A stretch of DNA of 57,635 nucleotides from Pseudopedobacter sp. (lineage in GTDB: Bacteria > Bacteroidota > Bacteroidia > Sphingobacteriales > Sphingobacteriaceae), in contig JACMOI010000161.1 of NCBI GenBank assembly GCA_014378105.1, forward strand, positions 1 to 57,635, given 5' to 3'. This document shows, in pieces, positions 21,285-56,301 of the stretch. Position 1 is the stretch's first letter; every line of letters begins with the position of its first letter. Under the pieces are notes generated by a model. It saw only the letters and a list, made by a program, of their open reading frames with translations. It was not told where the DNA came from and ran no database searches. A program made the position numbers and the translations under genes.

Positions 21285-21819
21285 CTTGATTTGATTTAAT
21301 TTCCTTTACCTCGTTAGTAATGTTTAGTTGTTGATTGAGCAGAGAGATTTGCGCTTGCATGTTCCGGATCATTGCCTTTACAATTCTATCTTGATTTGGA
21401 GTAGTTGATAATTTCTCTTTTAACTCGGTATATTCCTTGTCTAATTTCTTCTGCTCATTCATAAATATTTTATAGAGCGCAGGATCAATTTTCTTTAACG
21501 TCTTTAATTCAGTTCTTTTATCTTCTATCAATGATGAAAATCTAACTTCTTTTGCAGCATATTCCGGGTTTATATTGGCTAAACTGTTTGCTTGTTGTGT
21601 TTTATAATGTCCCCAAATAAAACCTATACTCAGTACCATGATAAAAACAGCAGCTACTTTTCCAATGGTAAACATTGAACGTATTTTATTACGTTGATTT
21701 TGTTTGATACACTGTTCTTCCAAACGTTCATCAAGCTTTGTCCATAAGCTTTCATCAGGTTCCAAAGCATCAAACTCTTTCCTATTATTTCTGATAAAGT
21801 TTTCTAATTTCTCACTCAT
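21268..21819 (-). CDS. Single-pass membrane protein, probable anti-sigma factor
   Basis: A 183-residue protein. The cytoplasmic N-terminus carries 'LENFIRNNRKEFDALEPDESLWTKLDERL', a pattern common to Bacteroidota anti-sigma candidates next to ECF sigma genes. One membrane helix follows (about 52-70). The periplasmic part is helical and charged, probably coiled coil ('IEDKRTELKTLKKIDPALYKIFMNEQKKLDKEYTELKEKL'). Its ATG overlaps the sigma stop (ATGA), and its 3' end overlaps the next gene by 17 bases. No zinc-binding ZAS motif is seen. The role rests mostly on context. Confidence 0.72.
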   Translation of the reverse strand: MSEKLENFIRNNRKEFDALEPDESLWTKLDERLEEQCIKQNQRNKIRSMFTIGKVAAVFIMVLSIGFIWGHYKTQQANSLANINPEYAAKEVRFSSLIEDKRTELKTLKKIDPALYKIFMNEQKKLDKEYTELKEKLSTTPNQDRIVKAMIRNMQAQISLLNQQLNITNEVKEIKSNQDEKSI

Positions 21820-22376
21820 CTTGCTATTCCTTTATGTTTTAATATCTCTACTAATTTTTTCTTGGCTCTTAGAAATTGTGTTCTCGAAGTTCCTTCGTTT
21901 ATCTTTAAAATCTGACCAATTTCTTCATGATCATATCCTTCTAATAAGTATAAACTCAAGACTAACCTATAACCTTCTGGTAAAAGCTGAATGGCCTTTC
22001 GTACCTCCTCAACTTTCCAGTTATTCTCTTCTTCTACTTCCCAATCATAATCAACCACACTTTCAACATCCACCTCTTCAATTTCTTCAAAGATTATTTT
22101 CCGCTTTCGCAGGATGTTAATAGAGCGATGGATTACAATTTGTTTAAGCCATAAACCAAAAGTGGTTTCTTGTCTAAAATCTTTAATTCGTGTAAAAGCA
22201 TCCATAAAAGCTTCCTGCAATGCATCTTCAGCTTCATCGGTATGGTTGAGTATGCGCATAGCCACGTTGTACATGGCTTTTGAGTATAACCTGTACAATT
22301 CATGATGTGCTTTTCGCTCTCCTTTTTTGCACTCGACAACTAGGTCGTAGTGTTTATCAATGTAAATAGCCTCCAA
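21816..22376 (-). CDS. ECF RNA polymerase sigma factor
   Basis: A 186-residue sigma-70 family protein. Region 2 includes 'YRLYSKAMYNVAMRILNHTDEAEDALQEAFMDAFTRI' and 'FGLWLKQIVIHRSINILRKRK'. Region 4 includes 'LPEGYRLVLSLYLLEGYDHEEIGQILKINEGTSRTQFLRAKKKLVEIL'. An acidic linker (EEIEEVDVESVVDYDWEVEEENN) separates them. The start codon is TTG at 22376. It is the first gene of a four-gene cluster whose overlaps and short gaps suggest an operon, with an ECF-like promoter just upstream. Confidence 0.92.
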   Translation of the reverse strand: MEAIYIDKHYDLVVECKKGERKAHHELYRLYSKAMYNVAMRILNHTDEAEDALQEAFMDAFTRIKDFRQETTFGLWLKQIVIHRSINILRKRKIIFEEIEEVDVESVVDYDWEVEEENNWKVEEVRKAIQLLPEGYRLVLSLYLLEGYDHEEIGQILKINEGTSRTQFLRAKKKLVEILKHKGIAR

Positions 22377-29053: not shown

Positions 29054-30274
29054 TTGAATAAGAACAAAATAATCAACGATCCTGTTTACGGTTTCATCAG
29101 TATCAAAACGCCCTTGCTTTTTGATTTGATTGAACATCCCTATTTCCAACGCTTGAGGTACATTAAGCAATTAGGAATGACGCACTTGGTATATCCCGGC
29201 GCATTACATACACGATTTCATCACGCTTTAGGTGCTATGCATTTAATGCAATTAGCTATTGAACACCTACAAAGCAAAGGTCATGAAATCACTAAAGATG
29301 AAGAGGAGGCGGCTTGTGTAGCTATTTTACTACATGACATAGGTCATGGACCGTTTTCTCATGCATTAGAGCATACCATTGTCGAAGGTGTCTCACATGA
29401 AAAAATTAGTCGCTTATTCATGGCTAACTTAAACGAGGAGTTTGATGGGCAATTAGATTTAGCCTTACAAATTTTTAATAATCAGCATCCTAAAAAATTC
29501 CTTTATCAATTAATTTCAGGACAGTTAGATTTAGACCGCTTAGATTATTTGAATCGCGATAGCTTTTTTAGCGGTGTTACTGAGGGTATGGTTAGTTCAG
29601 ATCGGATTATTAAATTAATCAATATAAAAAACGACGAACTGGTAGTAGAGGAAAAAGGTATTTATTCGATAGAAAAGTTTTTAATTGCCCGCAGGTTGAT
29701 GTATTGGCAAGTTTATTTACATAAAACCGTTATAGCTGCAGAGCAACTACTGGTGAAGATTTTAATTAGAGCAAGGGAGTTAGCTTCAAACGGAGTAGAA
29801 TTATTTGCAACTCCGGCATTAAAACATTTTCTTTATAAAGATATCAACGAAACCGCTTTTTCTTTGGACCCTAATCACCTCCAATTTTTTTCAATGTTAG
29901 ATGATCATGACATCATGAGTTCGATAAAAGTTTGGCAGTTACACGATGATTTTATTTTGAAAACACTTTGTACCAACTTAAACTATCGCAACTTATATAA
30001 AGTCGAAATCAGCAATGAAATTCCTAATAAGGAAAAGGTTGACGAATTATCTAAGAAAGTTATTGAAAAACTGGGTATAGATGAGAATGAATCAGTTTAT
30101 TTTGTTTTTACAGATACTATAAATAATATGGCTTACAAAACTGGAAACGGAAGTATAAACATCTTAATGAAAGATGGAAGTTTAAAGGATATAGCAACGG
30201 CATCAGACAATTCTAACCTCGAAGCTTTATCAAAAACCGTTACCAAAAACATATTATGTTACACAAAAGTTTAG
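29054..30274 (+). CDS. HD domain phosphohydrolase (SAMHD1/dGTPase-like)
   Basis: A 406-residue metal-dependent phosphohydrolase starting at TTG. The N-terminus 'KIINDPVYGFISI' and 'FQRLRYIKQLGMTHLVYPGALHTRFHHALGAMHL' are typical. The HD residues are H94/D95 in 'LLHDIGHGPFSHALEH', with 'SGQLDLDRLDYLNRDSFFSGVTEG' further on. Relatives hydrolyse dNTPs to nucleosides and triphosphate, or act on other nucleotides; the exact substrate is not shown by sequence. It diverges from porX and is followed by lpxD after 63 bases. Confidence 0.9.
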   Translation: MNKNKIINDPVYGFISIKTPLLFDLIEHPYFQRLRYIKQLGMTHLVYPGALHTRFHHALGAMHLMQLAIEHLQSKGHEITKDEEEAACVAILLHDIGHGPFSHALEHTIVEGVSHEKISRLFMANLNEEFDGQLDLALQIFNNQHPKKFLYQLISGQLDLDRLDYLNRDSFFSGVTEGMVSSDRIIKLINIKNDELVVEEKGIYSIEKFLIARRLMYWQVYLHKTVIAAEQLLVKILIRARELASNGVELFATPALKHFLYKDINETAFSLDPNHLQFFSMLDDHDIMSSIKVWQLHDDFILKTLCTNLNYRNLYKVEISNEIPNKEKVDELSKKVIEKLGIDENESVYFVFTDTINNMAYKTGNGSINILMKDGSLKDIATASDNSNLEALSKTVTKNILCYTKV

Positions 30275-46973: not shown

Positions 46974-47639
46974 ATGACCATTCATAAAGAAGGCTATACC
47001 TCACTCGCACTTTGCGTATTATTCATATTTGTTACCAATTGGTTGGTCAACTATTACCTCCCGGATGTAACTTGGTTTGTTTGGTTATGGTATATTTTTT
47101 CCGCCTTTTTGTTCCTCATCATTTTACAGTTTTTCCGCAGTCCTTCTAGGATTTTAACAAAAAACGAAAACCAAATTATTTGCCCTGCAGATGGTAAGGT
47201 TGTGGTAATTGAAGAAACCGAAGAGCCAGAGTTTTTAAAAGATAAACGCATTCAACTATCTGTTTTCATGTCGCCCGTAAATGTGCATGTGAACCGCAAT
47301 CCATTGAGCGGAGTCGTTAAGTTTTTCAAATATCACCCAGGTAAATATTTAGTAGCCTGGGATCCAAAATCATCTACCGAAAATGAAAGAACGACTACCG
47401 TTGTAGAACATAAAAGTGGAATTCAAGTATTGTATCGCCAAATTGCAGGAGCAATGGCTCGCCGAATTGTTTGCTATTTAAAAGAAGGTGACCAAGTAGA
47501 ACAAAGCCATGAATTTGGTTTCATTAAATTTGGTTCCCGTGTAGATGTTTTCTTGCCTTTAGGTACAAAAATCGATGTGAGTTTAGGTGAAGTAGTAAAA
47601 GGCGGAGTGACCGTTTTAGCTTCGCTTCCAAATGCTTAA
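46974..47639 (+). CDS. psd: Phosphatidylserine decarboxylase family protein
   Basis: A 221-residue short-type (PSD-A) proenzyme. Two N-terminal membrane helices precede 'RSPSRILTKNENQIICPADGKVVVIEE' and 'LSVFMSPVNVHVNRNPLSGVV'. Self-cleavage is expected between G187 and S188 in 'EFGFIKFGSRVDVFLPLG', where Ser becomes the pyruvoyl group. It makes phosphatidylethanolamine, the main membrane lipid of these bacteria. It follows cdsA, its pathway predecessor. Confidence 0.93.
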   Translation: MTIHKEGYTSLALCVLFIFVTNWLVNYYLPDVTWFVWLWYIFSAFLFLIILQFFRSPSRILTKNENQIICPADGKVVVIEETEEPEFLKDKRIQLSVFMSPVNVHVNRNPLSGVVKFFKYHPGKYLVAWDPKSSTENERTTTVVEHKSGIQVLYRQIAGAMARRIVCYLKEGDQVEQSHEFGFIKFGSRVDVFLPLGTKIDVSLGEVVKGGVTVLASLPNA

Positions 47640-47663
47640 GGAAGTAAAATAGCGCTATTTCTC

Positions 47664-48254
47664 ATGTTTGATTTAACAATTCTTGATCTTTCTTCTGCGG
47701 CAGGACTAACAGCGACAGGCTTTTTAACTTTCAACATCCTTTTGGGGATGTTATTAAGTACCGCTTATAAAAGAACCCAAATTTGGAAATCGTTCCCTAA
47801 AAACCTTCAAAAAATAAGCGTTTATCAATTGCATAACATCACTGCTTACATAGCGCTAACGCTGGTCATCATCCATCCTTTGCTTTTGTTGTTAGACAGC
47901 AGCACTCAATTTACTTTCATAGATATCATTTTCCCCATCAACGCTCCAAAGCAAAAGCTATTTGTGGCTTTAGGTACGTTGTCGTTATACGCTATTATTA
48001 CTGTTGTGATCACCAGTCAAAAAGCGGTAAAAAAAAGAATGAGTTTCCGACTTTGGAAAAATATCCATTTGATTTCTTACCTCACCGCCATCCTGTTTGT
48101 TATTCATGGTGTTGCCATGGATCCTTTGTTAAAAGACAGATCGATTGATTATTTAGATGCCGAAAAACTATTCCCAGAATTATGTTTAGTAGCCATCGTA
48201 GTCGCTACCATCTTTCGTTATCGCTATCATTTGAAAAAGAAGAAAACACTTTAG
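47664..48254 (+). CDS. Ferric reductase-like transmembrane protein
   Basis: A 196-residue protein with about six helices of the ferric-reductase-like (YedZ/MsrQ, PF01794) type. Candidate haem histidines lie in 'VYQLHNITAYIAL', 'LVIIHPLLLLL', 'WKNIHLISYL' and 'ILFVIHGVAMD'. There is no flavin or NADPH domain, so electrons must come from a partner. It is 24 bases after psd. Methionine-sulfoxide reductase partner MsrP is not in the window. Confidence 0.8.
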   Translation: MFDLTILDLSSAAGLTATGFLTFNILLGMLLSTAYKRTQIWKSFPKNLQKISVYQLHNITAYIALTLVIIHPLLLLLDSSTQFTFIDIIFPINAPKQKLFVALGTLSLYAIITVVITSQKAVKKRMSFRLWKNIHLISYLTAILFVIHGVAMDPLLKDRSIDYLDAEKLFPELCLVAIVVATIFRYRYHLKKKKTL

Positions 48255-48434
48255 TTTTTCAGAAAATCAATTTAACAATCTTTGCGTGTGCGATGTATCC
48301 TACCGTCGACGATGACGTTAATCGGAGCGTCACCTCGAAGAAACGATAAGTCTCACTTGTGGGTTTCCGCATAACAACAAATAGCAAATCTTTTTTAGGG
48401 GTGAGTATAGAAAAAATTATTTATTAAACTTAGC

Positions 48435-48770
48435 CTAATAAAATAACTTTGCTTTATCCGTAAAACCATCAAACACTGGTTTTAGAAAATTACGCTCGTA
48501 ACTGATGATGCATTTGGTATCGTTGGCATACTTCAACGCTTCTTGACATTTTGGTGAATTTTGAATTTCGTTTCGATAGCATTCATACGCTGCCAACGAA
48601 GGAAAAGAAAAAGAAGCGTAACCAACATTACTTGCTCCCTCGTGAGGTAACAAATAACCGTGATGTAAACCGCCCATTTCATTGACCAAGTCTATCCAAA
48701 GTTTTCCATAATGCTCAAAATCTTTTACTTTGGCTGGGTCAATAATATATTTTATGAAACAAGTAGTCAT
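48435..48770 (-). CDS. NIPSNAP family protein
   Basis: A 111-residue dimeric alpha-beta barrel protein. 'CFIKYIIDPAKVKDFEHYGKLWIDLVNEMGGLHHGYLLPHEGASNVGYASFSFPSLAAYECYRNEIQ' matches the bacterial NIPSNAP pattern. Function in bacteria is unknown. It is a lone gene; a perfect 8-bp palindrome (48857-48876) lies about 90 bases upstream. Confidence 0.9.
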   Translation of the reverse strand: MTTCFIKYIIDPAKVKDFEHYGKLWIDLVNEMGGLHHGYLLPHEGASNVGYASFSFPSLAAYECYRNEIQNSPKCQEALKYANDTKCIISYERNFLKPVFDGFTDKAKLFY

Positions 48771-49195
48771 TGTTTTAATTTCTAAGTTTTAACCTATTGC
48801 AATTGTTGTTGACATCATAGTCATATTATAGTTAGCGCAAGGAAATTTGATATTAAGAAATACCGCCGGGTATTTCACAATCCTAAAATAGTTCTTTTCT
48901 TAACAAAACATTCAACTAAAAAAGAATAGCAGTACAAACCCAACCCAAATAAACCCGATAGCAATGAAAAGCCCGCAAGCCAAAAGCGAGCGGACTTGTA
49001 ATGGATAGCGGGAATATCGGAACCTAAAAGCACTCGAAATTGCTTTTCCCAAATAGGATTACTTTAGAACTAAAAAATCTATAGAAATAGCTGTAAATTC
49101 AGTTTCCTAAATTTTTTTGATAGAAATTGAGGGTAAACGATTGCGGTCGCGGTATATTGCATGTACGCGTATTTTTTAATTAAAAGCTTTTACAA
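48771..49195. other. Non-coding region: palindrome, repeat-like segment, ECF promoter
   Basis: No credible gene in 425 bases. It holds a GAAATACC-GCCG-GGTATTTC palindrome (48857-48876) and a segment at about 48955-49020 (GCCCGCAAGCC ... GAGCGGACTTG ... GGATAGCGGG), which I recall as a recurring Bacteroidota intergenic sequence. The sigma promoter at 49127-49155 lies at the right end. Confidence 0.5.
49127..49155 (+). promoter_or_regulatory. ECF promoter motif, site 1 (sigma gene)
   Basis: TTGAGGGTA (49127-49135), a 14-base spacer, CGGTAT (49150-49155), 40 bases before the sigma-factor TTG. The same motif and exact spacing recur at 53053 and 54135, so autoregulation by this sigma factor is likely. 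Confidence 0.72.
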
Positions 49196-49678
49196 TTGGA
49201 GAAAGAGGATTTTAAACTCTTGTTTGATACTTATTTTGATGCCATAAAAAACTACCTTTTTTATAGGGTGGGCGATGTTGATATAGCAACCGACATTGCT
49301 CAGGATGTTTTTATGCGCATTTGGGAGAAACAGATGAAATTGGATATGAACAATGCCAAGTATTTGCTGTACAAAATTGCTCGCGATATGCTGGTGAGTA
49401 AATACCGCAGAATGGAGGTAGAAAATAAATATGTGAACCGCATGCAGTTTGAAATGACAGAAGTAACTACAGATGATAGTTATGATTTTAAACAATTGCA
49501 AAAGAAATATGATGATGCTTTAATGCGATTACCGGAAAAACAACGAACGGTATTTTTGATGAGCAGAAGTGAAGAATTAAAATACGCAGAGATTGCGGAA
49601 CGCTTAGACATCAGCATTAAAACGGTTGAAAAAAGAATGTCGAACGCGTTGTTTTATTTAAGAAAGGTTTTAGCATGA
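49196..49678 (+). CDS. FecI-type ECF RNA polymerase sigma factor
   Basis: A 160-residue sigma factor starting at TTG. Region 2 is 'FKLLFDTYFDAIKNYLFYRVGDVDIATDIAQDVFMRIWEKQ' with 'KYLLYKIARDMLVSKYRR'. Region 4 is 'LPEKQRTVFLMSRSEELKYAEIAERLDISIKTVEKRMSNALFYLRKVL'. It overlaps the FecR-type anti-sigma gene by four bases. With the STN-containing TonB receptor downstream, this forms a cell-surface signalling set. Confidence 0.93.
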   Translation: MEKEDFKLLFDTYFDAIKNYLFYRVGDVDIATDIAQDVFMRIWEKQMKLDMNNAKYLLYKIARDMLVSKYRRMEVENKYVNRMQFEMTEVTTDDSYDFKQLQKKYDDALMRLPEKQRTVFLMSRSEELKYAEIAERLDISIKTVEKRMSNALFYLRKVLA

Positions 49679-50535
49679 AAGATATGCAAAAGAATGATTT
49701 AAAAGATCCGGTGGATTTAATTGACCGGATGAAACCCATGGAGGCAAAAAGAAGTAAAGCAGATGTTTGGGCGGATTTGGAGCAGATGATGAAACAAACC
49801 AGAACGACAAAGGTGAGGAGTATGAACTTCTCGACTTGGAGCGTAGCGGCTAGCATTTCCATAGTGGTGACTTTAAGCTTACTGGCAACAGCAAGATTTT
49901 ATACCATCACAATTAATTGCGAAGCGGGTTCGCAAAAAACAATAACTTTGCCTGATGGCTCTTCTGTGATGTTGAACTCGGCTTCTTCCTTAAGTTATTA
50001 CCCATTTTGGTGGTCTTTTGATAAAAAAGCGGAGTTAAATGGTGAGGCTTTTTTTGAAGGGGAGCATGCTAAAAATTTCACGATAACATCCGACAAAGCG
50101 GAGACGACTGTTTTAGGGACCAGTTTTAATATTTACGCTCGTGATAATGATTATCAAGTTACTTGTGTGACTGGAAAAGTGAAAGTATTGGCGCTTATTA
50201 GTAAAGATGAGGTGATCATTACGCCTAATCAAATGGTTTCTTTAAATAATTCTGGTAAATTAACCCCTAATTTAAATGTGGATGCTCAGCTTGCGAAAGA
50301 ATGGACAAATAATCAATTTATTTTCACTCAGGTTCCGTTAAAAAATGTACTTTCAGAAGTATCTAGACGTTACGGAATAAGCATTGAAGGAATTGAAAAC
50401 TTAAACCAGCCCTATACCGGGAGTTTTGTAAAACAAGATCATATTGAGGATGTTTTAGCTATTATTTGTAAACCTTTTGCACTTGAATATAAAAAATTAC
50501 CATCGGGAGGTTTTATTATTGAACAAGCGCCATAA
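49675..50535 (+). CDS. FecR-type anti-sigma factor
   Basis: A 286-residue single-pass membrane regulator. A short cytoplasmic part (about 1-55) precedes one helix ('WSVAASISIVVTLSLLATARF'). The periplasmic FecR domain has 'KTITLPDGSSVMLNSASSLSYY' and 'ELNGEAFFEG', then 'TTVLGTSFNIYARDNDYQVTCVTGKVKVLA'. The C-terminal DUF4974 part has 'FTQVPLKNVLSEVSRRYGISIEG'. It would relay receptor signals to the sigma factor. It overlaps the sigma stop (ATGA) and the receptor start (17 bases). Confidence 0.92.
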   Translation: MKDMQKNDLKDPVDLIDRMKPMEAKRSKADVWADLEQMMKQTRTTKVRSMNFSTWSVAASISIVVTLSLLATARFYTITINCEAGSQKTITLPDGSSVMLNSASSLSYYPFWWSFDKKAELNGEAFFEGEHAKNFTITSDKAETTVLGTSFNIYARDNDYQVTCVTGKVKVLALISKDEVIITPNQMVSLNNSGKLTPNLNVDAQLAKEWTNNQFIFTQVPLKNVLSEVSRRYGISIEGIENLNQPYTGSFVKQDHIEDVLAIICKPFALEYKKLPSGGFIIEQAP

Positions 50536-53041
50536 TTGGCGCTTATTCCCTTTTGTAGTTTTATTTTTTCTGCTATTTTTTTCTCAAAGCTTGTTTGCTC
50601 AACAAGCTATTGTTATTAAAGCTAAAAATCAGTCGCTCAATAAAATTATTACCGCATTAAGGGACCAATATGATGTGAAGCTTTCATTTAATGATGATAA
50701 GCTAGCTTCTTACGTAATTGATATAGATAAAAGTTTCTCTTCTATTGAAGATGCGCTACGCTTTTTGGTTAAAGGCTTACCCTTAAATATTGAGCAGGTG
50801 AATGATGTCTTTATCATCACCAGTCATAAAGCCAATCTGACAGGGAAAAAGTATTTACTTTCGGGACATGTGATTGATGGCAGGGATTATGAAACCCTTC
50901 CGTTTGCGAGTATAGTAGTGGCTAGTTATCCATTAATTACTGACCAAAAAGGAAATTTCTCCTATTCATCTACAATCGATTCTGTCTTTAATCTACATCT
51001 CTCTTACTTGGGTTATTACAAATTAGACACGCTAGTTGGCACAAATGCCAATTTAACAATAAAGCTCTTTCAAAATAGTATTAATATAAAAGAGGTGGTT
51101 TTATCTGACGAACAATCTAAGAAAACATTAGATACCACTTACAATGCAGGGAGCTTAAAAATAAACCATACGATAGGACAGTATTTACCAGGTAGTAGCG
51201 ATAACTCCGTTTATAATTTATTGCGTTTGCAGCCTGGCATTTTAGCCGCTGGCGAGCAGTCCAACGACTTAATAATTTGGGGAAGCTATCGTGGGCAAAC
51301 CAAGCTTTCCTTCGATGGCTTTACAGTATTTGGATTAAAAAACTTTAACGATAACATTGGAGCCATCAACCCTTTAATCACTAAAGATTTATCGATACAG
51401 AAAGGCGGTTATGGTGTGGAACAAGGCGATAGAGTTGGAGGAATAGTAAACATTACTGGTGTTGATGGAAGTATTATAAAGCCAACTTTAAAGGCAACTG
51501 TTAATAATCTAACCTTAAATCTTTCGGCCAGTACACCTTTATTTAAAAATACTTCCTTAGTAATTGCTGGGCGACAAACTTATTATAATTTGTATGATAG
51601 TTATAGTTTAGCACCGCCTCCGAATAATAATAACAACGCTACTAAGCTGATAGATCTAACAGTAAAACCTAAGTATGATTTTGAAGATTATAATTTAAAA
51701 TTTTCTGGACGGTCTGACCAAGGGGATGATTATTATTTGAGTTTATTTACAGGAAACGATAATTTCACCTCATCTTACTCCACCAATCAATATAATTATA
51801 ATATCAATGGGTCGAACCTAGAGAAAAATAAGCAATTTGGTGGGGCAGCTTTTTATTCTAAAAATTGGGCAAATGGAGGCATTTCTAATGTTACCGTAGC
51901 TACATCGGGATTAAATAGTTTTTTTTCAGAAAATGTTGATCTAAAAAAACCCCAGGATGTTAGCTTCCAGAAAAAAAGTGCTGAATTAATCAGGAATGAT
52001 ATCAAAGAAACTAGTGTAAAGTTTACGCATAAATTGCCTGCTACAAAAAACTCTAATTTGCTTTTAGGTTTTGGTTTCATCAACAATAGAACCAGTTTAA
52101 AACAAGACTCTTCCAAAATACAAAAGCTTAGTAATTTATATGAAAGCAACCGAATTTATTCGTTTATTGAAGACGCTTATTTTATTTCTCCAAAATTTAA
52201 AATTACGCCTGGTATCAGGGCTGATTTAGACTTAGAACTTCAAAAAGTTTATGTACAGCCAAGATTAGCTTCTTCTTATGAGTTTAATCCAAACTTTAAA
52301 ATATCAGCTTCATGGGGCTTGTACAATCAGTTTATCGCCTACAATGGCGTAGTAGATGATGAAGGGAATTTCCATTATCAATGGACCGTTAGCGATGGTA
52401 AAAATGTACCGGTTTATCGTTCCCAACATTGGGTCTTAGGATCTTCTTTTCAAAAAAATCAATTTTGGATTAATACTGATGTATACCTAAAAAATACCAT
52501 TGGCATTACTCGTTTTGTTGATGGTAGAGCGGGTAGAAAATCTATTGCTGGTGATAGCAGGGCAATTGGAATAGATTTTTTAATTAAAAAGGAGTATAAG
52601 GGAAACATGGCTTGGATTTCTTATTCTTTAAGTAGTACGCAGGAAAGCTTTCCTAAAAAAGTAAATAAACAAACTATACAAATTTATAGACGAGCGCCAC
52701 AAGATCAAAGACATGAGTTGAAGTTTGCGGGCGTATTAAATCTTTCTCCTTTTTATCTTTCTGCAAATTATGTTTATGGTTCGGGATTTCCCAGTACAAA
52801 CCCTTTGGATAACCCAAATACCAACCAATTGGCCTATAATCGATTTGATGTTGCTGCTACTTATCGCTTTTCGAGAAAGCGCTATCATTTAGAAACCGGT
52901 GTTTCCATTTTAAACTTGTTTAATACACAAAATATCAAATCCAGTAATTTCGAAAGAATCCCTACAGAACAAAACACTTTAAACATCTATTCTCAGGCAG
53001 TTCCTTTTACGCCTACGCTATTTTTAAAGTTCTCGCTTTAA
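50519..53041 (+). CDS. TonB-dependent signalling receptor with STN domain
   Basis: An 840-residue outer-membrane receptor. I start at TTG 50519, preceded by GGGAGG eight bases upstream. A signal peptide ('LFPFVVLFFLLFFSQSLFAQQ') leads to the STN domain ('NQSLNKIITALRDQYDVKLSFNDDKL', 'SSIEDALRFLVKG'), which in FecA-type receptors contacts FecR. A CarboxypepD-reg-like domain, plug ('VYNLLRLQPGILAAGEQSNDLIIWGSYRGQTKLSFDGFTVFG') and barrel ending in 'TPTLFLKFSL' follow. The ligand is unknown. It overlaps the fecR-type gene, so the three form one transcript. Confidence 0.9.
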   Translation: MNKRHNWRLFPFVVLFFLLFFSQSLFAQQAIVIKAKNQSLNKIITALRDQYDVKLSFNDDKLASYVIDIDKSFSSIEDALRFLVKGLPLNIEQVNDVFIITSHKANLTGKKYLLSGHVIDGRDYETLPFASIVVASYPLITDQKGNFSYSSTIDSVFNLHLSYLGYYKLDTLVGTNANLTIKLFQNSINIKEVVLSDEQSKKTLDTTYNAGSLKINHTIGQYLPGSSDNSVYNLLRLQPGILAAGEQSNDLIIWGSYRGQTKLSFDGFTVFGLKNFNDNIGAINPLITKDLSIQKGGYGVEQGDRVGGIVNITGVDGSIIKPTLKATVNNLTLNLSASTPLFKNTSLVIAGRQTYYNLYDSYSLAPPPNNNNNATKLIDLTVKPKYDFEDYNLKFSGRSDQGDDYYLSLFTGNDNFTSSYSTNQYNYNINGSNLEKNKQFGGAAFYSKNWANGGISNVTVATSGLNSFFSENVDLKKPQDVSFQKKSAELIRNDIKETSVKFTHKLPATKNSNLLLGFGFINNRTSLKQDSSKIQKLSNLYESNRIYSFIEDAYFISPKFKITPGIRADLDLELQKVYVQPRLASSYEFNPNFKISASWGLYNQFIAYNGVVDDEGNFHYQWTVSDGKNVPVYRSQHWVLGSSFQKNQFWINTDVYLKNTIGITRFVDGRAGRKSIAGDSRAIGIDFLIKKEYKGNMAWISYSLSSTQESFPKKVNKQTIQIYRRAPQDQRHELKFAGVLNLSPFYLSANYVYGSGFPSTNPLDNPNTNQLAYNRFDVAATYRFSRKRYHLETGVSILNLFNTQNIKSSNFERIPTEQNTLNIYSQAVPFTPTLFLKFSL

Positions 53042-53052
53042 TTTTTTCTTTT

Positions 53053-53081
53053 TTGAGGTTGGCATTCTAATTGATAAGTAT
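53053..53081 (+). promoter_or_regulatory. ECF promoter motif, site 2 (DUF4382-like lipoprotein gene)
   Basis: TTGAGGTTG (53053-53061), 14 bases, AAGTAT (53076-53081), 87 bases before the lipoprotein ATG. It has four differences from site 1 (two in each box) but identical spacing; it is the weakest of the three. Confidence 0.6.
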
Positions 53082-53168
53082 CCATATCAATCATTCAATT
53101 GCTGTTTAACAACTGCAACTTTTAAAAAATTTGATCGTTTAAACATTAATTACTAAAAATTAAAAATC

Positions 53169-53909
53169 ATGAAAAAAACAAATTCAATTAGCAATATCAT
53201 TAAGAGTATATCTTTTGTTTTGCTAGCAGTTACCGTATTAGCTTCATGTAAAAAGAGCAGTACTTCTGGTTCGGGAAAGTTATCTCTCCAATTTAATGCA
53301 GCAAACTCTGGTGTAGTAAAAACTGCAAATACTTCGGATTTAAAAACCTTTGGTGCGGCCGTTTCAACCAACACTGTTCCAACCGGTATAACTTGGACCT
53401 CTGGATATGTATATGTATCTGAAATTGACTTTAAAGCCACTAAAGACAATGCTACTGAGATCAAATATAAATCTGAAGGATCAAGAAAAGTAGATTTATT
53501 TAATGTAAATGCCTCTGCTGGAGATTTTACCATTCCTTCTGGTGTATATAGTAAAATTAAACTTGAGCTGGAGATTGGCGCTCCACAAGGAGCTAAAGAT
53601 CCAGGAGTCTATTTAAGCGGAACTTATGGAACCACTCCAATAGTTTTTGCTGATGATGAAAGCGGCGATCAATTTGAGGTAGAAGTAGAGGGTAGAAATT
53701 TTACTTTTGATAGTACAAAAGATTATAACAGCTTAATCAACCTTCATTTAAATTTATTATTAAATGGAGTAAGCAATGCAGATTTAGACGCTGCAACAAA
53801 GACTAATGGTACAATTGTACTTAATAGTAAAAGTAATGTTGCCATTTATCAAAAAGCAAAACAAAATCTTAAAAAGCTTTCAGATTCTGATTTTAAAGAA
53901 AAAGATTAA
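53169..53909 (+). CDS. DUF4382-like lipoprotein
   Basis: A 246-residue lipoprotein with the lipobox in 'VLLAVTVLASCKK' (Cys about 27). A low-complexity segment rich in S, T, K and A follows. The body resembles DUF4382: 'SGYVYVSEIDFKATKDN', then 'SRKVDLFNVNASAGDFTIPSGVYSKIKLELEIGA' and a later 'LINLHLNLLLNGVSNADLDAA'. Its role is unknown. It lies behind the TonB receptor with its own copy of the ECF motif, and a terminator follows the stop. Confidence 0.75.
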   Translation: MKKTNSISNIIKSISFVLLAVTVLASCKKSSTSGSGKLSLQFNAANSGVVKTANTSDLKTFGAAVSTNTVPTGITWTSGYVYVSEIDFKATKDNATEIKYKSEGSRKVDLFNVNASAGDFTIPSGVYSKIKLELEIGAPQGAKDPGVYLSGTYGTTPIVFADDESGDQFEVEVEGRNFTFDSTKDYNSLINLHLNLLLNGVSNADLDAATKTNGTIVLNSKSNVAIYQKAKQNLKKLSDSDFKEKD

Positions 53910-53930
53910 AAAAACTATTCTGTATCATTT

Positions 53931-53966
53931 AAATGGCTGTTTCAACTTTTGAGGCAGCCATTTTTT
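53931..53966 (+). terminator. Terminator after the DUF4382-like gene
   Basis: AAATGGCTG (53931-53939) pairs with CAGCCATTT (53955-53963), followed by more T residues, 22 bases after the stop codon. Confidence 0.8.
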
Positions 53967-54134
53967 ATTCAAAAAAATTGAAAGGATCGGATTTAAAAAT
54001 CTACTGCTTTTAAAGCTACCCTCTCTCTATTTGTCCAAATTATACAAAACACGAAGTTACTCAACAGCCTCAGGTTTTTTATTTATCAAAAAAAAGTCTT
54101 TTCCCAAAATACCTACTCATTTATTTTAATTTTT

Positions 54135-54163
54135 TTGAGGGTAGCACTTCAATTTTTCGGTAT
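54135..54163 (+). promoter_or_regulatory. ECF promoter motif, site 3 (PepSY-like lipoprotein gene)
   Basis: TTGAGGGTA (54135-54143), 14 bases, CGGTAT (54158-54163), 47 bases before the ATG. Both boxes and the spacing are identical to site 1. A terminator separates it from the upstream gene, so this gene needs its own promoter. Confidence 0.72.
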
Positions 54164-54210
54164 TGTAGTAAATCAGCTGAATAAAAAATTTCACAATTAA
54201 AAAAAAGAAA

Positions 54211-55134
54211 ATGAAAGCAATATTTAATCTTAGAAACTCAATTGCGCTCCTAGCCTTAGTAGCAGTGGGCTTTACTGCATGTAAAAAATCGGATACTGGA
54301 ACTATTACCGATTTCGGAACTCAACTAGGTGCGGTAGCCATTGCATCAACAAATACGGTAGCTGGTTTACAAACCACGACATCTACAAACGACTCTCTTT
54401 ATGCCATGGATGCTTGTCATAAAGACCACAAAAGAACCAATGTAAAAGCAGAATCACTACCTACATCAATCAACACTTATTTAACTACAAATTATGCTGG
54501 TTATACTTTTATAAAAGCATTTAGCACAACCACCATCAGCACCAATACTTTAGATGCTTATGTTGTTGGCATTAATTTTAATGGTAAACCAGTTGCTTTA
54601 AAGTTTGATGCTGCGGGAGTATTCATCAAGGTTTTAGAGTTAAGGGAAGGTCGTGATATGAAGAAAGGTGGAGATCATCACGATGGTGGATGTTTTGATG
54701 ATAGAGACGGAAAGCAAAGAGACACCATAGCGATTAGTGCTTTACCTGCTAGTATTAAAGCCTATTTTAAAACTAATTACGCACAAGATACTTTAAAAGG
54801 CGCTTTTACAAATAAAGATGGAAGCATCATCGTCATTAGTAAAAATGTGAGTTTCTTCGCCACTGCTTTTAAAGCTGATGCAACATTTATTAAAAGAGAC
54901 GTTTTGCCAAATCACCCCGGAAAAGACAAAGAAATTGCACAATCGGCTCTGCCTTCAAGTGTGACCACCTATTTAAGTACAACTTATCCTAACTATGTTT
55001 TTAAGAAAGCTTTTTCTGATGTGGATAATGGCGTTGTAAAAGGATATTTGGTAATTATTGATGCCAACATGACTAAGTATGCTGTTGTATTTAATGCCTC
55101 TGGAGCTTTTATTTCAGCAAAAGCCTTAAGATAA
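54211..55134 (+). CDS. Lipoprotein with three PepSY-like repeats and a His/Asp-rich linker
   Basis: A 307-residue lipoprotein with lipobox 'LVAVGFTAC' (C24). Three PepSY-like (DUF2874-type) repeats start with LP.S...Y: about 81-142 ('LPTSINTYLTTNYAGYTFIKAF'), 176-232 ('LPASIKAYFKTNYAQDTLKGAF') and 245-305 ('LPSSVTTYLSTTYPNYVFKKAF'). Between repeats 1 and 2 is 'KKGGDHHDGGCFDDRDGK' (151-168), and 'DACHKDHKR' (67-75) precedes repeat 1; both look able to bind metal. A periplasmic binding or inhibitory role is possible. It is transcribed from its own ECF motif. Confidence 0.78.
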   Translation: MKAIFNLRNSIALLALVAVGFTACKKSDTGTITDFGTQLGAVAIASTNTVAGLQTTTSTNDSLYAMDACHKDHKRTNVKAESLPTSINTYLTTNYAGYTFIKAFSTTTISTNTLDAYVVGINFNGKPVALKFDAAGVFIKVLELREGRDMKKGGDHHDGGCFDDRDGKQRDTIAISALPASIKAYFKTNYAQDTLKGAFTNKDGSIIVISKNVSFFATAFKADATFIKRDVLPNHPGKDKEIAQSALPSSVTTYLSTTYPNYVFKKAFSDVDNGVVKGYLVIIDANMTKYAVVFNASGAFISAKALR

Positions 55135-55158
55135 TTTTTTCTGATTAGTTTGATGGTA

Positions 55159-55188
55159 AGGGATGGGCTCAAAATTGAGCTCATCCCT
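55159..55188 (+). terminator. Terminator after the PepSY-like gene
   Basis: A 14-bp stem (AGGGATGGGCTCAA with TTGAGCTCATCCCT, one G-U pair) and 2-base loop, followed by TTGTTGTTT. Confidence 0.75.
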
Positions 55189-55265
55189 TTGTTGTTTAAA
55201 AAATTGTCCGTTTTTATTTGATTAATAGAAATTATAGATTTGCACACTCATTAAAAGATATCATT

Positions 55266-55583
55266 ATGTTCGATAAAATATTTGAAGCTCAGCAAAAAGC
55301 TGAAGAGGTAAAAAAAAGATTGGCAAACATCAGTGTAGTTGCCGAGGTTGAAGGAGGCGCCATTAAAGTAACTGCAACTGCTAACAAACTTATTCAGTCG
55401 ATTGAAATAAAAGAAGACTTCTTAAAAGAGAACGGAAAAGAAGGAATAGAAGATCTGTTAGTTGTGGCTATTAATAAAGCTTTGGATCAAGCAGAAAATG
55501 TTTCACAAGCAGAAATGGCTGCCGTTACGCAACAAATGTTAGGTGGAATGGGTGGTTTGGGAAACCTTTTTGGTAAAAAATAG
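55266..55583 (+). CDS. YbaB/EbfC family nucleoid-associated protein
   Basis: A 105-residue DNA-binding protein. 'MFDKIFEAQQKAEEVKKRLANISVVAEVEGGAIKVTATANKLIQSIEI' is the YbaB fold, and the C-terminus is Met/Gly rich ('AEMAAVTQQMLGGMGGLGNLFGKK'). The ATG at 55266 gives the family N-terminus; an upstream in-frame extension is rejected. It binds DNA as a tweezer-like dimer. The UPF0173 hydrolase gene starts 25 bases later. Confidence 0.93.
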   Translation: MFDKIFEAQQKAEEVKKRLANISVVAEVEGGAIKVTATANKLIQSIEIKEDFLKENGKEGIEDLLVVAINKALDQAENVSQAEMAAVTQQMLGGMGGLGNLFGKK

Positions 55584-55608
55584 TTTCATAGACAAAACGA
55601 ATACAATT

Positions 55609-56301
55609 ATGAAAATAAATTATTTAGGACATTCAGCATTTTTATTTGAAATTTCTGGTAAAAAAATATTAGTTGATCCTTTTATATCTCCTAATGAATT
55701 AGCCAGCCACATTAAAGCGGATGAAATTTCTTGTGATTATATTTTAATTTCCCATGGACATGGCGACCACGTTGCAGATTTAGTAACGATTGCAAAACGG
55801 ACAGGAGCAAAAGTAGTGAGCTCATTTGAGATTATCGATTGGTGCGCAAAACAAGGAATTGAAAATGGCCACCCCATGAATTTAGGAGGAAGTTGGACAT
55901 TCGATTTCGGAACCGTAAAAATGGTTTATGCATCGCACTCAAACTCATTACCCGATGGTACGTATGGCGGAACTGCTGCTGGCTTTATTATCAAGGCAGA
56001 GGGTAAAACGATCTACTATTCTGGAGACACTTCCTTAAATCAAGAAATGAAATTAACGGGCGAGTTAAATAAAATTGATTATGCTTTCTTACCTATCGGA
56101 GATAATTTCACAATGGGTATAGATGATGCTGTAATAGCAGCTGACTTTATTAAATGTGAAAATATCATTGGCATGCACTACGATACTTTTGGTTTCATTA
56201 AAATAGATCATGATTATGCTAAAAAGGCTTTCGCCGATGCTGGTTTGAATTTACATTTATTAGAAATTACTGACGACATTTCGAAAGCGATAACTTTATA
56301 A
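55609..56301 (+). CDS. UPF0173 metal-dependent hydrolase (MBL fold)
   Basis: A 230-residue metallo-beta-lactamase-fold protein. 'MKINYLGHSAFLFEISGKKILVDPFIS' opens the family. The metal site is HGHGDH (H49, H51, D53, H54), with 'VYASHSNSLPDGTYGGTAAGFII', 'IYYSGDTSL' and 'LPIGDNFTMGIDDAVIAADFI' further on. The substrate is unknown. It ends in a strong terminator shared with the convergent glgC. Confidence 0.93.
   Translation: MKINYLGHSAFLFEISGKKILVDPFISPNELASHIKADEISCDYILISHGHGDHVADLVTIAKRTGAKVVSSFEIIDWCAKQGIENGHPMNLGGSWTFDFGTVKMVYASHSNSLPDGTYGGTAAGFIIKAEGKTIYYSGDTSLNQEMKLTGELNKIDYAFLPIGDNFTMGIDDAVIAADFIKCENIIGMHYDTFGFIKIDHDYAKKAFADAGLNLHLLEITDDISKAITL

Follow-up and report, generated by a model that had tools for sequence, protein, structure and literature searches.

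In FecI-FecR-FecA signalling, the sigma factor FecI is not known to transcribe its own gene. The extracytoplasmic function (ECF)/FecR/SusC-SusD systems of Bacteroidota polysaccharide loci are built from a sigma factor, a protein with a FecR_C (DUF4974) domain and a receptor with a carboxypeptidase-regulatory domain, and the methanobactin system MbnI-MbnR-MbnT consists of a sigma factor, an anti-sigma factor, a TonB receptor for a metal-binding peptide and a secreted partner. Bacteroidota hold many FecI-type sigma factors (18-23 matches in the genome studied here), and the promoter is known for few of them. Here we analyse a sigma-FecR-TonB receptor locus with two lipoprotein genes in Pseudopedobacter sp. 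(GenBank assembly GCA_014378105.1), located on a stretch of 57,635 nucleotides (contig JACMOI010000161.1, positions 1 to 57,635; hereafter the window). The initial annotation of this stretch had proposed that one alternative sigma factor reads three equally spaced promoters, one before the sigma gene and one before each lipoprotein gene.

The locus very probably encodes cell-surface signalling of the FecI/FecR/TonB-receptor kind, with a regulon that is self-contained and very small and a secreted target specific to the lineage. A ligand would bind the outer-membrane receptor, whose N-terminal signalling domain would act on FecR; FecR would release the sigma factor, which would start transcription at (R)GTAGGGTA-N14-CGGTAT-like promoters. 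One of these, P1, is predicted to read sigma, FecR and receptor and probably the DUF4382 gene too, and the other, P2, the PepSY-like lipoprotein gene. Comparison with related loci supports the promoter code, its placement, its specificity for this sigma clade and the lineage-specific secreted target, and the corrected consensus of the predicted promoters is RGTAGGGTA-N14-CGGTAT. We read the layout as P1-sigma-fecR-receptor-DUF4382-terminator-P2-PepSY-terminator, with the following features:

49127..49155, + strand: predicted promoter P1 (site 1), AGGGTA at 49130-49135, 14 bases, CGGTAT at 49150-49155; matrix score 25.6
49196..49678, + strand: FecI-type ECF sigma factor, TTG start, 160 amino acids (aa)
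49675..50535, + strand: FecR-type anti-sigma factor, 286 aa; FecR 4.9e-16, FecR_C 5e-10
50519..53041, + strand: TonB-dependent receptor; signal sequence, N-terminus resembling STN or FecR_C, CarboxypepD_reg-like domain, putative plug, and barrel; ortholog profiles A4/A7/A8
53053..53081, + strand: site 2 of the initial annotation, rejected as a promoter of this class; matrix score 3.5, G016 counterpart -11 to -20
53169..53909, + strand: DUF4382 lipoprotein; PF14321 25.5 bits (cut-off 25.0)
53931..53963, + strand: intrinsic-terminator-like hairpin of 15 pairs followed by a T run, 3′ of the DUF4382 gene; consensus match only
54135..54163, + strand: predicted promoter P2 (site 3), AGGGTA at 54138-54143, 14 bases, CGGTAT at 54158-54163; score 25.6
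54211..55134, + strand: PepSY-like lipoprotein, second transcription unit, 307 aa; PF11396 2e-9, 38.1 bits (cut-off 28.3)
55158..55189, + strand: intrinsic-terminator-like hairpin of 14 pairs, 3′ of the PepSY gene; consensus match only

The pattern first reported, TTGAGGKTR-N14-MRGTAT, is indeed present on the + strand at 49127, 53053 and 54135 (0.00 expected, 100 shuffles), and its second box lies 40, 87 and 47 bases before the start codon at sites 1, 2 and 3, within the claimed 40-87. A scan of the whole genome (3,349,997 bases in 191 contigs) returned these three sites as the only exact matches. When up to two mismatches were allowed, 113 matches were found in the genome and likewise 113 in the reversed control, so the signal is confined to exact matches. 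Because the pattern was derived from those three sites, its rarity is no proof that all three belong to one class. Based on the related loci described below, two of the three first-reported promoters look real and one does not.

Orthologous sigma-FecR-receptor-PepSY operons are found in 8 of 18 genomes of the genus, among them Pedobacter cryophilus, P. puniceum, P. psychrophilus, P. segetis and two metagenome bins; two of the operons (G015 and G017) are on broken contigs. The sigma factor is found at E 1e-40 or better in 8 of 399 genomes of the family, all in the window's genus. AGGGTA-N14-CGGTAT is identical upstream of the sigma gene in all eight clade genomes while the spacer diverges, and AGGGTR-N14-CGGTWW precedes the PepSY gene in all eight. 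Clade sites of the P1 and P2 types score 20.7-25.6 with the matrix described below, compared to 3.5 for site 2; the boxes are kept in relatives for sites 1 and 3 and not for site 2. The P2 sites of the window's genome (G000), G016 and G017 are identical including the spacer and, given a G000-G016 tract that looks exchanged, count as fewer than three independent cases. The first-reported pattern itself has exact matches in 4 of the 18 genus genomes. Matches in G001 (four copies of one sequence) were rejected as promoters: the copy examined (L075) lies inside a 439-aa open reading frame (ORF), by eye a transposase. Other exact AGGGTA-N14-CGGTAT matches in G003, G006 (two), G008 and G010 were also rejected, all being within ORFs.

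The 16 clade sites (8 sigma and 8 PepSY upstreams) were the sole training set of a matrix that was then applied to distant homologues found with receptor profiles in Gaoshiqia sediminis, in five genomes of the class or phylum and in 66 of 393 genomes of one order, where 40 of 76 listed places were taken besides G1085 (31 close, 9 sister). Loci were chosen by receptor homology and the first operon genes were assigned by eye; for G1338, the start was set to 1360 after the site was seen. All 28 testable distant loci have a site scoring at least 12 in the 300 bases that precede the sigma operon's first gene, with 14 bases between the boxes in 25 and 15 in 3, compared to a maximum score of 5.5 on the opposite strand of the same windows. 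This site is the best match of the whole locus on both strands in 23 loci; another target-gene site is best in four, and a coding match in one (G1263, 13.8 against 12.3 for the site). Shuffled loci gave 13 matches in 729,376 strand-bases, or about 0.15 per 8,400 bases tested. TAGGG and CG are invariant among the 28 sites, preceded by G in 26 and T in all 28. Distant sites thus read RGTAGGGTA, and the TTG prefix of the original motif drops out of the core. Across 46 loci, all 40 matches scoring at least 17 sit before the sigma operon or another gene, and the distance from site to start is 20-112 bases in most loci (range 8-247). Nine loci stand outside the 28, with the contig ending before the operon or no sigma gene found (G1008, G1431a, G1431b, G1187, G1403, G1270, G1146, G1264 and G1287); G1431b, G1187 and G1287 have the receptor and some upstream DNA, and neither sigma gene nor site. 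Taken together, boxes kept over diverging spacers in the clade and a site at every testable distant locus support the proposed -35/-10 pair of a single alternative sigma factor, and the site before the sigma operon in 8/8 clade and 28/28 distant loci supports the proposed autoregulation.

The predicted regulon appears to be tiny. Of the 23 sigma-like loci that the window's genome contains, none but the one described here is preceded at short distance by the motif. In G1085, TAGGGTW-N14/15-CGGTWW has three matches genome-wide, all at the locus, before the sigma gene and two secreted-protein genes. The share of such matches that fall at the locus is 3/3 in G1085, 1/3 in G959, 1/2 in G736, 0/4 in G925 (whose own site ends CGGTGT) and 0/1 in G1008, with 4, 21, 5, 3 and 6 reversed-control matches in G1085, G959, G736, G925 and G1008, respectively; the result is clean in G1085 only. 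RGTAGGGTA-N14/15-CGGTWW gave 19 matches in 18 of 326 phylum genomes compared to about 54 in the reversed control; the motif is thus no general Bacteroidota promoter, and a pattern scan without the sigma gene is uninformative.

Several observations weigh against this picture. A spacing of 19 also passes 12 in 6 of the 28 windows, and the matrix gives chance matches above 12, for example 13.7 at window position 29580 and the 13 in shuffled loci. Candidate sites also exist in the window's genome outside the locus: C31:500 has an exact core and lies within the last part of an ORF, and C31:5364 departs from the core by one mismatch and stands ahead of a 38-aa ORF. The latter (L268 5392-5364, - strand, score 19.1) has a high-scoring counterpart in G017 (C18; L269 10229, 25.4), and in both genomes the 38-aa ORF that directly follows contains a single hydrophobic stretch. 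This ORF is a possible further regulon member, and its transcript could be leaderless because about 8 bases separate the -10 box from the ATG. The former (L268 528-500, - strand) and its counterpart at L269 14754 both score 19.0 and lie where a 206-aa ORF ends, with a lipoprotein gene starting about 84 bases further on; their conservation says little because the region is 95% identical.

The secreted output varies by lineage while sigma factor, FecR and receptor are kept, as judged from the target families, which differ among loci. The site directly precedes the sigma gene in 15 of 28 loci, and a secreted-protein or lipoprotein gene lies between site and sigma gene in the other 13. In ten loci, separate genes for secreted proteins are preceded by one or two extra sites, with one such case on the opposite strand (G1167); G1085 and G1335 have three sites each. 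The target set comprises 26 proteins, 25 with a linked site plus the lipoprotein of G1338, for whose gene the 190 bases available contain no separate site. A simple pattern finds a lipobox-like sequence in 22 of the 26, and 13 carry a DYGDGxCD-like motif; the four of these 13 that were scanned gave no Pfam match above cut-off. Four targets are DUF2202 proteins and one (G1469) is a DUF4382 protein, and others are Met/His-rich, His-rich or Gln-rich or have an FTMPDG repeat.

These targets bear on the ligand, which we tentatively suggest is most likely a metal or a metal complex that the lipoproteins would bind or buffer at the cell surface. Pointing this way are the composition of some targets, the DUF2202 proteins (which we take to be ferritin-like), RND pumps by G1085 and G1335, a FUR-family gene in G1335, FeoB by G925, and the PepSY-like structure model, which is of moderate confidence (66.0), has three similar units and matches 3u1w and 3db7, deposited as calcium-binding or calcium-regulated. 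On the other hand, several targets lack a metal signature, and the fold matches are partial, with template modelling (TM) scores of 0.21-0.48. It is also conceivable, if doubtful, that the system responds to stress on the envelope or to a ligand that is a peptide or an antibiotic, with the lipoproteins acting as protective, chaperone-like proteins. Many targets without a metal signature would suit such a role, as would the Gln-rich targets of Gaoshiqia and G1397, with LTEEQ-like repeats that by eye presumably resemble Spy/CpxP. It accounts less well for the His-rich target of G1335 (13 His in 114 aa), the Met/His-rich targets of G1383 and G1431a, DUF2202 in four loci and the neighbouring pump, FUR-family and FeoB genes.

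The two lipoproteins of the window had both been assigned promoters of their own. For the PepSY-like protein this agrees with P2. For DUF4382, site 2 does not behave as a promoter of this class: its boxes, AGGTTG and AAGTAT, depart from the core at several positions, and in G016 both are altered and one base is lost although the surrounding 121 bases are 89% identical. DUF4382 is probably the last gene of the P1 operon and would belong to the regulon by read-through, since no terminator-like site was found between the receptor and DUF4382 genes, one follows DUF4382, and in another lineage (G1469) a DUF4382 lipoprotein (3.5e-28) is the first gene of the sigma operon. Each terminator-like site is itself only suggestive, because 7 were found and 4.1 expected. 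That all three sites are promoters of this sigma factor, with a weak site 2 giving DUF4382 its own transcription, would fit the 14-base spacing and TTGAGG start common to all three and the recurrence of DUF4382 as a partner in G1469, and is nonetheless very unlikely given the off-core boxes, the score gap, the decay in G016 and the lack of a terminator-like site before the gene. DUF4382 is present in G000, G016 and G017 only among the clade loci read, and DUF4382 lipoproteins recur in such systems in two distant lineages (L229:7914-8792, - strand, and window 53169-53909). Over positions 53042-54210, which comprise DUF4382 and the intergenic DNA on both sides of it, G000 and G016 are 89-94% identical, compared to 70% for the flanking receptor and 63% for PepSY. 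This tract looks like a recently exchanged cassette, and the P2 of G016 is therefore not independent of that of G000. A structure model of DUF4382 was poor (predicted local distance difference test 50.1) and was not used.

Specificity for the sigma clade is suggested by a sister group. At seven loci with a related sigma factor, the clade matrix scores at most 6.6 before the sigma gene. TAGGGTA-N14-TGTATT was read upstream in four of them, and TAGGG.A-N14-TGTAT occurs in all seven sister loci with a sigma gene (9 sites, all forward) and in none of 37 main loci; it precedes the sigma gene in four and the receptor or a second FecR gene in the other three. Three sister loci (L259, L266 and L267) have a second FecR gene after the receptor, with TAGGGTA-N14-TGTAT before that FecR. 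The CGG form appears once in the sister loci, in G1282 (G1282s), the one genome seen with both sigma types; with both systems present, the two promoter types of that genome would be told apart by their -10 box. At the G1282 sister locus, a main-type site (L260 1465, 24.9) lies about 340 bases before an ORF resembling by eye an FKBP-type lipoprotein. In the sigma tree (midpoint root; 4 of 17 window-genome paralogues covered, 13 left out as unaligned), the sister group branches off within the main group (100/100), with long branches; the direction of the -10 change is inferred, as the tree is midpoint-rooted. Both groups share an identical region 4.2 helix, KxVEKRM. Arg71 is present in 37/37 main rows and is replaced in the sister rows by Glu/Asp (4 rows) or Lys (3 rows); Ser68 is present in 32/37 main rows and is Asn in 7/7 sister rows. 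Judging from sigma structures, these two residues presumably contact the -10 box; positions 24, 105, 123 and 159 also differ between the groups. We may be dealing, though we propose this with reserve, with an undescribed phylum-spanning subfamily that has an RGTAGGGTA-N14-CGGTAT code, a sister -10 switch to TGTAT (-35 box and spacing kept; Arg71/Ser68 changed where the region 2 helix ends) and an interchangeable metal-buffering lipoprotein cassette. That the motif is instead the binding site of another regulator beside these genes is highly improbable: start sites are predicted from sequence, which leaves room for it, but the single fixed orientation, the 14-15 base spacing, the position 20-112 bases before most starts and a second box that changes with the sigma-tree branch while the first stays constant all argue for a sigma -35/-10 pair.

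Profile matches agree with the gene identities first given for the sigma gene, the receptor operon and the DUF4382-like and PepSY-like lipoproteins. The sigma factor scores 127.8 bits with TIGR02985 (cut-off 126.4), with Sigma70_r4_2 at 1.1e-16 and Sigma70_r2 and r4 above cut-off, and its ORF adjoins that of FecR with a 4-base overlap; FecR scores 59.4 bits (cut-off 24) and FecR_C 39.7 (cut-off 24.4). The receptor domain matches fall below cut-off (CarbopepD_reg_2 32.0 bits, cut-off 32.2; Plug 18.4, cut-off 23.9; STN 15.6, cut-off 28.4), with a FecR_C-like match (22.3) at residues 50-113; Plug is above cut-off in the distant homologue G736. The receptor start codon is uncertain, the listed ORF starting at 50477. 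A second TIGR02985-type ECF sigma gene in the window (21816-22376, - strand) has no motif upstream. A family scan of the neighbour proteins from 46974 to 56301 matched neither SusD nor glycoside hydrolase families.

Comparison alone yields here a code for the promoter, a predicted regulon of very few genes and a natural change of the -10 box from one sister group to the other. As uncharacterised families of lipoproteins, DUF4382, DUF2202, PepSY-like proteins and the DYGDGxCD module would share one regulatory slot, which offers a first handle on their function. In the open-licence literature, in the parts seen (including PMC9723704, PMC12596196 and PMC7406223), we found no paper describing the motif or the gene set; AGGGTA strings in the passages seen of PMC5395568 are CRISPR (clustered regularly interspaced short palindromic repeats) repeats. 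Among mapped ECF promoters of Bacteroidota, the F. psychrophilum motif SM6 and the B. thetaiotaomicron non-canonical promoters are alternative-sigma promoters as well, and the passages on either make no mention of AGGGTA-N14-CGGTAT.

With MbnI-MbnR-MbnT, the locus has in common a sigma factor, an anti-sigma factor, a TonB receptor and a secreted partner; neither a precursor peptide nor biosynthesis genes could be recognised at it. With the SusC-SusD systems, the locus shares the domain build of sigma factor, FecR_C and receptor, whereas no SusD match was found in the scanned proteins and the partner lipoprotein is of the PepSY, DUF4382 or DUF2202 kind or uncharacterised. With systems of the FecI-FecR-FecA type (ferric citrate, siderophore), it shares the clustering of genes for a FecI-type ECF sigma factor, a FecR and a TonB receptor, whose N-terminus may here be of the signalling type. 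It differs from them in that the sigma gene is predicted to be autoregulated and that the second target is a secreted lipoprotein rather than periplasmic or inner-membrane transport genes.
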